The notes beneath the pieces were generated by a model. The model worked only from the letters and a program-made list of their open reading frames with translations, did no database searches and was not told where the DNA came from. Below, piece after piece: positions 11,836-16,842 of a stretch of 34,440 nt of DNA. Numbering within the stretch: position 1 is the stretch's first letter; each line of letters starts with the position of its first letter. The position numbers and the translations under genes are program-made. This DNA is from Verrucomicrobiales bacterium (GTDB taxonomy: Bacteria > Verrucomicrobiota > Verrucomicrobiia > Verrucomicrobiales > DEV007). The DNA lies in NCBI GenBank assembly GCA_016795505.1, contig JAEUHH010000045.1, forward strand, positions 1 to 34,440, in the 5' to 3' direction.

Positions 11836-12139
11836 CGGGGAGGTTTTGCCGTCCTGCAACCTTTGGGTGAGCCGGAACCCAATCGTTTTGCGCCGCTGCA
11901 ACATCGATCCGCACCCGCGCCAGCGACCGGGCGACGGTGCCCGTTCCCGTTGCGACGCGACGAAATCATTTTGTCGCGTCGCAAAATCGTTTTGTCGCGG
12001 TGCAAGGTCATGTTGCGACGCTCCCAGCCGGGTTGCCGCGGTGCAAAACCGTCTTGCGCCGGCGCAAGACGAGCGGGTGACGCGCCAAACCGCGCTGATC
12101 CGGCGCGACGAAAGGTTGCAGGACGGCAAAACCTCCCCG
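11836..12139. repeat. Palindrome array B enclosed by a perfect 29-bp inverted repeat
   Basis: 11836-11864 is the exact reverse complement of 12111-12139. Between them lies a degenerate series of palindromic units at 20-21 bp steps, for example from 11969, 11990, 12011, 12031 and 12051. These include ATTTTGTCGCGTCGCAAAAT at 11968-11987 and a perfect GTCTTGCGCCGGCGCAAGAC at 12051-12070. The unit sequence (TTTTGYCGCGNYGCAAAA) differs from arrays A and C but the design is the same. The 304-bp size and terminal inverted repeats recall a MITE; no target duplication is visible. No coding is supported. Confidence 0.85.
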
Positions 12140-12196
12140 GGCCGACCTCCCGCCCCTCGGGGAGGGAGGCCCCCGGCGCCGCGGCGCGGCCATTTC

Positions 12197-12262
12197 CGAT
12201 GCAACAGGGTACGATCGCCGATGCAACAGGGTACGATCGCCGATGAAAGAGGGTACGATCGC
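12197..12262. repeat. Three 22-bp repeats centred on CGATCG
   Basis: CGATCG occurs at 12212, 12234 and 12256, each within GATGCAACAGGGTACGATCGC or a close variant (the third has GATGAAAGAGGG). The period is exactly 22 bp. Confidence 0.85.
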
Positions 12263-12281
12263 GATGCGTTGGGATGCGGGC

Positions 12282-12708: not shown

Positions 12709-14073
12709 ATGAACTATGTCTCCACCCGCGGGAAATCCCCCGCCGTCGGCTTTGCCGAAGCTTTTGCTCAGGGGCTCGCGCCCGATGGCGGCCTCTATGT
12801 GCCGGAAACGCTGCCCTCGCTGCCGGGCGACTTGCTGCTGGAGGAGGGACCGATGCCGTATCCGGCGCTGGCGTGGGATTTTTTCAATCTCTTCGACACG
12901 GACCATGACTCGGAGGAGCTCATCGCCCTGATCGATGAGAGCTACGGCAGCTTCAGCGAGACGATGACGGCGCCGCTGGTCCAATTGGCCGAGAATCTGC
13001 ACGTGCTGGAGCTGTTCCACGGGCCGACGCTGTCGTTCAAGGATTTTGGCCTCCAGCTCATCGGGAATCTGTTCGAGCACCAGATCCGCCACACCGGCGA
13101 GCCGATCAATGTCCTCGGGGCCACGTCGGGCGACACGGGGTCGGCCGCGATCCATGGGCTGGCGAACAAGAAGGGGGTCAATGTCTTCATCCTCTATCCG
13201 AAGGGCCGCATCGCCGAACTGCAGGAGCGCCAGATGACGTGCACGGCGGCGAAGAACATCTTTCCCATCCCGATTGAAGGCACGTTCGACGATGCGCAGC
13301 GGATCGTGAAGGAGCTGATGGGTGATCTGGAACTGAAGAACCGGCTGCGGCTGTCGGCGATCAATTCGATCAATCTCGCCCGCATCCTGGCGCAGTCGGT
13401 CTACTACGTGCATGCCTACATGCAGTTGCCGCTGGATCGCCGCGGGGATGTCCATTTTGCGGTGCCGACGGGGAATTTCGGCAATGTCCTGTCGGGCTGG
13501 CTGGCGCACCGGATGGGGCTGCCGGTGGAGCGTTTCATCGTGGCGACGAACCGCAATGACATCCTCCACCGCCTGTTCACCACGGGGCAGTATGCGTCGG
13601 GCGAGGTGCACCCGAGTCTGGCTCCGTCGATGGATATCCAGATCGCGTCGAATTTCGAGCGGTTCCTGTATTACTTCCACGGCGAGGACGGCAAGAAGAC
13701 GGCCGCCGACATGGCCAAGATCGCGAAGACGGGCAAGCTCAAGCTGCCGAACTTCGATCCCGGTGTCTTCGCCGCGACCCGCTGCGATGATGACCAGATC
13801 CTCGTCAACATCCAGCGGGCCAAGGAGGAGTACGGTTACATTGTGGATCCCCACACGGCCTGTGCCCTGCAGGAGATCGATCCGGACCGCACCACGGTGG
13901 TGCTGAGCACGGCGTCGCCGGCGAAATTCCCCGATGTGATGAAAAAAGCCATCGGCGAAGCGCCCACGGATCCGATGCTCGATGTGCTGAAGAAGCGCAA
14001 GCCGGTGCGCTACGAGCTGGAGGCGACGCCTGCGGCGGTGCGGGCGTTTTTGGAGGCGAATGCGGCGGGGTGA
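12709..14073 (+). CDS. thrC: Threonine synthase
   Basis: A 454-aa PLP enzyme that converts O-phospho-homoserine to threonine, in the cytosol. The N-terminal domain (MNYVSTRGKSPAVGFAEAFAQGLAPDGGLYVP) is typical of the longer, yeast/enterobacterial-type threonine synthases. The PLP lysine is K111 in GPTLSFKDFGLQL. The phosphate-binding loop is GATSGDTGSAAI, and VPTGNFGNVLSGW provides further cofactor contacts. The length is normal and nothing is missing. No Shine-Dalgarno sequence is evident before the ATG. The gene stands alone between two repeat fields, and no other threonine-pathway genes lie in the window. Confidence 0.95.
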   Translation: MNYVSTRGKSPAVGFAEAFAQGLAPDGGLYVPETLPSLPGDLLLEEGPMPYPALAWDFFNLFDTDHDSEELIALIDESYGSFSETMTAPLVQLAENLHVLELFHGPTLSFKDFGLQLIGNLFEHQIRHTGEPINVLGATSGDTGSAAIHGLANKKGVNVFILYPKGRIAELQERQMTCTAAKNIFPIPIEGTFDDAQRIVKELMGDLELKNRLRLSAINSINLARILAQSVYYVHAYMQLPLDRRGDVHFAVPTGNFGNVLSGWLAHRMGLPVERFIVATNRNDILHRLFTTGQYASGEVHPSLAPSMDIQIASNFERFLYYFHGEDGKKTAADMAKIAKTGKLKLPNFDPGVFAATRCDDDQILVNIQRAKEEYGYIVDPHTACALQEIDPDRTTVVLSTASPAKFPDVMKKAIGEAPTDPMLDVLKKRKPVRYELEATPAAVRAFLEANAAG

Positions 14074-14088
14074 GGGGGAGTTTGGGTT

Positions 14089-14158
14089 TTGGATCTTGGA
14101 TCTTGGATCTTGGATCTTGGATTTTGGATTTTGGATTTTGGATTTTGGATTTTGGATC
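14089..14158. repeat. Heptamer array, 10 x TTGGATY
   Basis: Ten perfect 7-bp units start at 14089, 14096 and so on to 14152. The first four are TTGGATC, the next five TTGGATT, and the last TTGGATC. It begins 16 bp after the thrC stop. A second array of the same heptamer lies at 16004-16059. Confidence 0.95.
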
Positions 14159-14201
14159 GCGGGACTTTGAGGGCGTGGCTAGAAGGGGAGGAGCGGGGGC
14201 A

Positions 14202-14402
14202 TTTTTCGGTACCGGAGGGTGATTTTCCGGTACCGGATTTTCATTTTCTGGTACCGGAAAGTGATTTTTCGGTACCTGATTTTGGTTTTTCGGTACCGGA
14301 AAGTGATTCTCCGGTGCCGGGATTTCATTTTTCGGTACCGGATTTTCATTTTTGGGCACCGGAATTTCATTTTCCGGTACCGGAAAATGAGTCTCCGGCG
14401 GG
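14202..14402. repeat. Ten-unit 21-bp GGTACC palindrome array (array C)
   Basis: GGTACC centres start at 14208, 14229, 14250, 14271, 14292, 14313 (GGTGCC), 14334, 14355 (GGCACC), 14376 and 14397 (degenerate GGCGGG), each exactly 21 bp from the last. The best units read TTTCCGGTACCGGAAA, separated by short spacers of GTGA/TTCA type. Substitutions inside the palindromes are few. No gene is supported in 14074-14516; open frames on either strand only translate the repeat. Confidence 0.95.
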
Positions 14403-14516
14403 GTGAAAAACGCGTAAAGCGTTGGTTTTCAATGAAAAGTCCGTCCGAGTAGTCCGGGGCTCGCGGTTCGGGCCCGGGAAACGATGAAGCGGGCAGGAGT
14501 GCCCGCGCTCCGTGGG

Positions 14517-15221
14517 TCAGGGGCGGTAGACCTGCTTCAGGAGCAGATGGGCGGTGACGGGCGGATTGGCTCCGAGCGGGGCGCTGGAGCGGAAAAAGAG
14601 GGTCATGCGATGGGAATTGTTGCACCAGAGGGAGAGAAAGGCCTCCTCGGGGGCGTCGAGCAGGCGCAGATTCGGTTCGGCGGCGAAGTTGAGCCAGGCT
14701 TGACGGTCGGGCCAGGGGGAGTCGGGGTGGAAGGTGTATCGGCTGCCATCGAGGCGGGCGAGGAAGGCGGCCACTTCGGTGCGGGGGACCCGTTTGTTGC
14801 GGCTTGAGTAGGGGCTGAGGAGCCATTCGGACTCGGTGCCGGGGGTGGACGGCGGGAGCTCGGTCCGCAGACGTCCGTCGGCGCCAAAATGGAGGGTGAA
14901 CCGGCCTCGTGGCACTTCGGCGATCCAGATGGTGCCGGCCAGCTCCAGCTCGCGGGTGCGGTGGCTGGATTTCCACCATTGGAGATCGGCTTCGCGCATC
15001 CAGAGCCAGTGCGAGACAGGCTCGAGGTCGATGCCCGCCACGGTCTTGGGCAGGGTGGGCATGGAAAAGTCGGTGCGATACCAGGCGCCCAGGGCGCCCA
15101 CCAGCAATCCGAGGGACAGGCCGATGGCGGCAAGAATCAGTGACCGCCGCCAGCGTCGCCACGCTGGACCCGGCGACGGGGGAGCCTGCGGCTCGGCGCT
15201 GTCGTCAGTCGGGTGGGGCAT
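14517..15221 (-). CDS. Membrane-anchored protein of unknown function
   Basis: A 234-aa protein I do not recognise. A Pro/Ala-rich start (1-20) is followed by WRRWRR and one hydrophobic helix (~27-47, SLILAAIGLSLGLLVGALGAW). This makes it a type II-like single-pass protein with ~185 residues on the outer side. The exposed part is Trp-rich (HWLWMREADLQWWK) and mixed alpha/beta. There are no catalytic motifs. It is transcribed away from thrC and lies 75 bp downstream of the lipoprotein gene at 15297-15911 on the same strand, so the two may be co-transcribed. Confidence 0.65.
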   Translation of the reverse strand: MPHPTDDSAEPQAPPSPGPAWRRWRRSLILAAIGLSLGLLVGALGAWYRTDFSMPTLPKTVAGIDLEPVSHWLWMREADLQWWKSSHRTRELELAGTIWIAEVPRGRFTLHFGADGRLRTELPPSTPGTESEWLLSPYSSRNKRVPRTEVAAFLARLDGSRYTFHPDSPWPDRQAWLNFAAEPNLRLLDAPEEAFLSLWCNNSHRMTLFFRSSAPLGANPPVTAHLLLKQVYRP

Positions 15222-15911: not shown

Positions 15912-16003
15912 GGGAGGGAATCGGAGGGAGGTGGGAAAATCGCGGAGATGATGCCACGGATGGGGCGTTTTGCCACTGGGAGGGGTGGGGATTTTTGGGG
16001 ATC

Positions 16004-16090
16004 TTGGATCTTGGATCTTGGATCTTGGATTTTGGATTTTGGATCTTGGATCTTGGATCGTGGGATTGGGATTGGGATTGGGATTGGGAT
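16004..16090. repeat. Second TTGGATY heptamer array plus ATTGGG hexamers
   Basis: Eight heptamers run from 16004 to 16059 (TTGGATC x3, TTGGATT x2, TTGGATC x3). They are followed at ~16064-16090 by about four and a half copies of GGGATT. This is the same heptamer as at 14089-14158. Confidence 0.92.
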
Positions 16091-16092
16091 TT

Positions 16093-16842
16093 GAGTGGGC
16101 GGGAGATGATCCGGAAAAAGCCGGGCTGAAGGCCCGTCGCATACCAGCCCGGGCAACGCCCTGGGAACCGGGGCCAAATCATGAAAAGCGTCCTGAAGGG
16201 GCGCCGCCATCACCGGTGAAGGTATGCCGGATGCGACGCCCCTACAGGGCGTCTTGAGAGGGGTGGGTGGGGTTCCCCAGGGCGTTGCCCCTGGGCTGGT
16301 ATGCGGGCGCGCCGTTGGCGCTTTTTTTCGACGGTGACGGGCCGTGGGACGGATGGCGGGAATCAACGCGAACGGGGGAGCCTGGTCTGAATGATTGAAC
16401 GCGAATGGAAAGGAATGAAACGAATGACGCGAATGGGGGAATCGGGAATCGAGTGGGAGATGATCCGGAAAAAACCGGGCTGAAGGCCCGTCGCATACCA
16501 GCCCAGGGCAACGCCCTGGGAACCGGGGCCAAATCAGGAAAAGCGCCCTGAAGGGGCGCCGCCATCACCGGTAGGGGCATGCCGGATGCGACGCCCCTAC
16601 AGGGCGTCTTGAGAGGGGTGGGTGGGGTTCCCCAGGGCGTTGCCCTGGGCTGGTATGCGGGCGCGCCGTTGGCGCTTTTTTTCGACGGTGACGGGGCGTG
16701 GGACGGTGACGGGCCGTGGGACGGTGACGGGGCGTGGGACGGTGACGGGCCGTGGGACGGATGGCGGGGATCAACGCGAACGGGGGAGCCTGGTCTGAAT
16801 GATTGAACGCGAACGGAAAGGAATGAAACGAATGACGCGAAT
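16093..16842. repeat. ~350-bp tandem duplication of a repeat block
   Basis: Copy 1 (16093 to ~16438) and copy 2 (16451 to ~16842) are nearly identical along their length. Each contains GGGCTGAAGGCCCGTCGCAT, CCAGGGCGTTGCC..., a GCGCC-GTT-GGCGC-T7 hairpin (16309-16328; 16663-16682) and a GAATGAAACGAATGACGCGA tail. Copy 2 has expanded one 18-bp unit, GTGACGGGCCGTGGGACG, to about four copies (16685-16759) where copy 1 has one. No coding is supported. Confidence 0.9.

Follow-up and report, generated by a model that had tools for sequence, protein, structure and literature searches.

A Probable Decayed Minisatellite of 21-bp Units Downstream of thrC in a Verrucomicrobiales Genome Rich in 21/22-bp Tandem Arrays

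Introduction

In an uncultured Verrucomicrobiales bacterium, the intergenic DNA behind the threonine synthase gene thrC carries the palindrome GGTACC, or a close variant of it, again and again at a distance of exactly 21 bp. Is such constant spacing maintained by selection, for instance through a protein that binds one face of the helix, or is it simply left over from the way in which the repeat was made? The window considered here (34,440 nucleotides) corresponds to contig C119 in a draft assembly of 6.55 Mb and 120 contigs. Here, we describe this repeat, array B, together with similar arrays in the same genome and in related genomes. We conclude, with a probability of roughly 0.7, that array B should be classed as a bacterial minisatellite of intergenic DNA, which grew by duplication of whole units and has decayed since.

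Structure and Surroundings of the Array

Array B lies between convergent genes and begins 127 bp beyond the thrC stop codon. Genes were called with a crude codon-usage predictor.

12709–14073, + strand: thrC, threonine synthase (Pfam PF14821, PF00291), the upstream neighbor
14077–14157, no strand: heptamer array GGATTTT/GGATCTT, 11.6 copies, a separate tandem repeat directly upstream of array B
14200–14398, no strand: array B, nine head-to-tail 21-bp units, from Tandem Repeats Finder and rows set in register
14208, 14229, 14250, 14271, 14292, 14313, 14334, 14355 and 14376: cores of the nine units
14313–14318, no strand: core of unit 6, GGTGCC, one substitution from GGTACC
14355–14360, no strand: core of unit 8, GGCACC, one substitution from GGTACC
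14367–14390, no strand: fullest dyad of the array, a perfect 24-bp palindrome (TCATTTTCCGGTACCGGAAAATGA) within unit 9, read from the sequence
14397–14402, no strand: GGCGGG, not a palindrome, at the end of the array
14517–15221, − strand: convergent downstream gene of 234 aa, crude call, no Pfam match

Tandem Repeats Finder delimits the array at 14200–14385 (period 21, 8.9 copies, 75% matches, 0% indels), and its call at period 42 extends to 14398. Identity at a lag of 21 bp is 0.742, whereas shuffled sequences average 0.273 and reach 0.365 at most, and the repeat is therefore far beyond chance. The consensus unit is CATTTTTCGGTACCGGAATTT; set in register, a unit consists of GGTACCGGA, five variable bases, ATTTT and two or three pyrimidines. 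The sequence-only reading had counted ten GGTACC palindromes, which is too many: seven of the nine units carry the exact hexamer (14208, 14229, 14250, 14271, 14292, 14334, and 14376), two differ from it by one base, and the supposed tenth is the GGCGGG at 14397. The 21-bp pitch without an indel was correctly seen from 14208 to 14376. The two variant cores are exact reverse complements of each other, which, for two transitions, could easily be chance.

The spacers had been described as variable, and their sequence does vary, but not freely: there are two related, recurrent types (...TGATTTT... and ...TTTCATTTT...), and T stands at the fourth base of the variable part and at the 13th base of the unit in 9/9 units. 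When units are typed by eye as X (GGAAAGTGATT-like) or Y (GGATTTTCATT-like), their order is XYXYXYYYX, an alternation that looks like early copying as a 42-bp pair of variants. About 26 substitutions are spread across the units and there are no indels, with T-runs present in each unit; neighboring units are only ~74% identical, and no two of the nine are the same. In its ideal form, a unit has two dyad centers ~10.5 bp apart, an arrangement best realized in unit 9, where the 24-bp palindrome folds as DNA with 10 bases paired on each side of a 4-base center. Such symmetry makes the array partly self-complementary.

Occurrence in Other Genomes

Array B appears to be confined to this genome. With one genome per species searched, it is absent from 74/74 further genomes within the family; across the phylum, 386 further genomes lack any set of three in-phase GGTACC sites. 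The region after thrC contains no 21-bp array in two relatives of the same genus; the closest named relatives by thrC are HKST-UBA MAGs. A second copy is also lacking within the genome itself, in which the sole match on both strands is the array. An origin from viruses, phages or plasmids was considered and rejected: array B has no match in phages or plasmids, and the 65 viral contigs that match the bare double-core pattern nearly all have two cores only. One viral contig (IMGVR_UViG_3300033143_006496, L326, 2166–2230) has three CCGGTACCGG cores exactly 21 bp apart with A-rich variable filler; the site lies outside the ORFs found and is an independent look-alike of array B.

Is the Spacing Selected or Inherited?

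To judge the lack of indels, arrays were compared within the same genome (1.13 Mb, non-genic, at least four copies). Indel events per substitutions amount to 41/437 (0.094) for periods of 21–23 bp and 22/211 (0.104) for other periods, a rough comparison, as the repeat finder favors indel-free arrays and the counts of array A and the C12 array are inflated by higher-order copying of the same indel. Array B has 0/26, where the pooled rate predicts ~2.5 (Poisson P about 0.08), and 12/18 arrays of its class likewise have zero indels. Exact spacing is thus no good evidence of selection, and the suggestion that the spacing is under selection finds no good support. The other proposal of the sequence-only reading, a very recent expansion followed by substitutions, fares better: whole-unit duplication and subsequent substitution fits best, although "very recent" is at odds with neighbors that are only ~74% identical.

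We therefore favor the minisatellite reading, which is consistent with nine units in exact register, two unit types, scattered substitutions, and absence from the sampled relatives. A 21-bp unit bearing GGTACC would have given rise to head-to-tail copies, with slippage or unequal recombination as the probable mechanism, and some of the copying may have involved a 42-bp pair that joined the two spacer variants. The copies would then have diverged by substitution; array B would be one among many 21/22-bp arrays to have arisen in this genome. Copying of whole units would then account for the exact pitch without any selection on spacing. Both this mechanism of duplication and the neutrality of the array are presumed from its present form. 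Like bacterial minisatellites (VNTR), array B has head-to-tail units of one length (21 bp, among tandem units of about 10–60 bp) and imperfect copies, is specific to one locus and is absent from relatives; in contrast, the genome-wide preference for 21/22 bp described below is not general for such loci in the sampled relatives. Three points weigh against this reading. Duplication and decay leaves the strong preference for 21/22 over 18–20 and 23–24 bp unexplained; zero indels among ~26 substitutions, despite the T-runs, is slightly below the pooled rate; and no shorter or longer allele of array B was found in a relative, so that growth itself is something we infer.

A Genome-Wide Preference for 21/22 bp

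Array B is accompanied in the window by further repeats of similar period.

253–704, no strand: array A, 21-bp units (dyad ACCCTCCCGAGGGT) and 20-bp units forming an 83-bp higher-order repeat
11940–12075, no strand: short degenerate 21-bp array around AAATCATTTTGTCGCG (Tandem Repeats Finder core 11963–12005; lag-21 identity 0.55 over the wider stretch)
12196–12267, no strand: three tandem units (CGATnnnACnnnGTnnnATCG) of a dispersed 22-bp dyad family

Array A is the same kind of array as B, but with indels, and an array related to it is present on contig C7 (69970–70164). Four arrays with a 22-bp period (C12, C13, C40, and C108) have the dyad ACCCTnnnnAGGGT in common, a pattern found 42 times across this genome, also in the 21-bp arrays A and C7 (reversed control, 5). 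The spacer core TGATTTT/AAAATCA was rejected as a genome-wide family: it has 9 sites at 21-bp pitch, mostly in A, B, and C7, and 6 in the reversed control. The 22-bp dyad CGATnnnACnnnGTnnnATCG also occurs at 190–211 of the window; usually its family has two units in exact 22-bp register with TTTC...GGAAA flanks. A strict form, CGATCnnACnnnGTnnGATCG, has 210 copies here, 23 in G013, which belongs to another genus, and 0–3 in the other 36 genomes searched, and its reversed control gave zero matches. Neighboring copies are 22, 44 or 66 bp apart and at no other distance under 120 bp, and they often follow closely on a stop codon or lie where two genes converge. Mutual information between the arms of the family is within the shuffle range, without sign of covariation, and the arms match less than chance (0.143 vs. 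0.209), which argues that those positions are not selected to form a hairpin.

About 17% of the genome was read (1.13 Mb), part of it picked for its repeats, which inflates density but should not alone make a 21/22 peak across unrelated units. In this sample, periods of 21 and 22 bp account for 56/116 non-genic arrays; many of those with 22 bp are formed by two members of the 22-bp dyad family. Identical intergenic hexamers are paired 1621 times at 21 bp and 1397 times at 22 bp, compared to 256 times at 20 and 210 at 23 bp. About a dozen intergenic 21/22-bp loci are left after removal of the 22-bp dyad family and the heptamer arrays, and from locus to locus the units are mostly unrelated; at periods of 31 and 32 bp, zero loci are left. 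Neither hexamer spacing nor the array census shows an excess at 31–32 bp in the same sample. In ~1.15 Mb from relatives, non-palindromic hexamers have no peak at 21 or 22 over neighboring distances (palindromic ones were discarded there, since runs of N score as palindromes), and no 21/22-bp array has four or more copies; these samples come from fragmented drafts, in which contigs are broken by arrays, and some were centered on thrC instead of being drawn randomly. Literature searches turned up no account of tandem repeats of 21/22 bp in Verrucomicrobia.

The general feature is the pitch, not the palindrome. Palindromic hexamers are not over-represented at 21/22-bp spacing compared to other hexamers (ratios 0.81 and 0.68, intergenic, sampled genome), and the GGTACC palindrome is therefore incidental to the pitch. 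The 21-bp phase is likewise seen with another palindrome, CCATGG, at two loci elsewhere (C50 and C57). General helical phasing was rejected for want of a 31–32 bp excess: the missing three-turn class points to a unit length fixed near 21–22 bp and speaks against phasing by the helix as such. A single cause may lie behind the excess. It is conceivable, if doubtful, that a process particular to this genome, either a fixed duplication register of 21–22 bp or a two-turn dyad-binding protein, repeatedly makes 21/22-bp arrays from unrelated intergenic sequence and holds the 22-bp dyad family in register, array B being one product. Array B alone matters little, as regular spacing follows from the growth of a tandem array; the unusual part is the wider pattern, with one genome crowded with such arrays and the sampled relatives not. 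If one genome repeatedly builds arrays of 21–22 bp from unrelated sequences and its sampled relatives do not, close strains could be compared to learn what sets the length of bacterial duplications: an enzyme, the helix or a bound protein.

Alternative Explanations

Other origins and functions for array B each have some support, be it as binding sites, as a transcript end or as a remnant of a mobile element, but none of these is favored. A pitch of 21 bp nearly matches two turns of B-DNA, so that a dyad-recognizing nucleoid protein or regulator could sit repeatedly on one face of the helix and select for the spacing. In line with this idea, the consensus of array B is dyad-symmetric at 14/21 positions (P about 0.04), above chance as in arrays A, C13, C108, and C40, and close neighbors in the 22-bp family are strictly 22, 44 or 66 bp apart. 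In a wedge model, curvature is raised in array B (1.357 vs. a shuffle mean of 1.139) and peaks at 21 bp when unit length is varied; yet 142/300 column-permuted arrays of the same 21-bp period are bent at least as strongly, and intrinsic curvature was rejected as a special feature of the array. The strong arrays C4, C37, and C38 show no dyad symmetry in their consensus, spacings of 31 and 32 bp have no excess although they would keep phase equally well, and palindromic hexamers are not favored at 21/22 bp. Together with one-sided changes in 2/9 cores, the lack of conservation of array B, and a convergent position that is only mildly common among such arrays, this makes an array of binding sites unlikely. 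We consider it similarly improbable that the thrC transcript folds here into hairpins and U-runs that end transcription or guard the 3′ end of the mRNA. The position between convergent genes, 127 bp past the stop, would suit such a role, as would an RNA fold of −119.6 kcal/mol (z −13.2), far stabler than shuffles, and five terminator-like sites in 800 bp compared to 1.4 in shuffles. However, any near-self-complementary tandem array folds in this way, so that the fold is not independent evidence. The consensus scan for intrinsic terminators (a GC-rich hairpin followed by a T-run) places four of the sites inside the array, all on the thrC strand; sites of this kind come automatically with self-complementary repeats. 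No Rfam family matches, two relatives of the same genus lack such an array after thrC, and on the other strand no U-run follows the dyads, so that the element could serve thrC only.

The ends of IS21 consist of multiple repeats (PMC10122671). Array B might be a remnant of transposase-binding repeats of the IS21 type, or of REP elements spread by a REP-associated transposase; the motif AA(A/G)T(G/C)A is common to arrays A, B, and C7 and one C38 array, and one relative of REP-type transposases, on contig C20, is flanked by 41-bp and 22-bp arrays. We hold this reading to be very improbable. No IS genes lie beside array B, and IS21 ends were rejected, as istA and istB are not linked to it and the only IstB match of the entire genome is weak and falls on a different contig. 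A link to REP-associated transposases is not supported overall: most other Y1-transposase loci examined have no arrays or 22-bp dyads close by, and G013, the relative second only to this genome in its number of 22-bp dyads, has just one Y1 gene, which is interrupted. REP/BIME and REPIN are GTAG- and CGTC-tagged palindromes (PMC3733652). Like them, array B consists of short extragenic palindromes in a cluster, as they sometimes are, but it occupies a single locus without the dispersed copies that define REP/BIME (its only match in the genome being itself), has no linked REP-associated transposase, and contains neither tag nor its complement at 14195–14405. An assembly artifact is scarcely credible. 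The draft does consist of 120 contigs, and the ends of some carry repeat arrays, several in all, but array B is internal to its contig, spans 200 bp and has no two identical units, so that reads can assign each unit uniquely.

Two further classes of repeat resemble array B in part. CRISPR arrays have regularly spaced, partly palindromic repeats as well; here, however, the units are contiguous, the whole 21 bp is the repeat, there are no unique spacers, and the variable part takes two recurrent types. No Cas-like protein was found among eight window proteins scanned with Pfam. The heptamer repeats of cyanobacteria and Xanthomonas (PMC4692102) are intergenic tandem arrays like array B, and GGATTTT/GGATCTT heptamer arrays are present in this genome too, one of them beside it. 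Array B differs from these STRR-type repeats in having no 7-bp sub-period, and a heptamer origin was rejected with a lag-7 identity of 0.292, at background (shuffle mean 0.272), vs. 0.742 at lag 21.

Other Features of the Window and Genome

Heptamer arrays are located at 14077–14157 and 15999–16063 of the window and at the ends of contigs C4, C37, C82, and C116, and their frequent position at contig ends suggests that they break assembly. On contig C20 (L073, 8376–9904), a Y1-type transposase gene interrupted by one stop lies between the 41-bp array and an array of 22-bp dyads. A small protein of the WXG100 family (Pfam PF06013, E 2.4e-10) is encoded at 906–1178 of the window, near the contig end. 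Finally, a stretch of ~300 bp with GCAACGCCCTGGG and GGGCGTC segments is present in two near-identical copies at 16085–16380 and 16445–16800 of the window.
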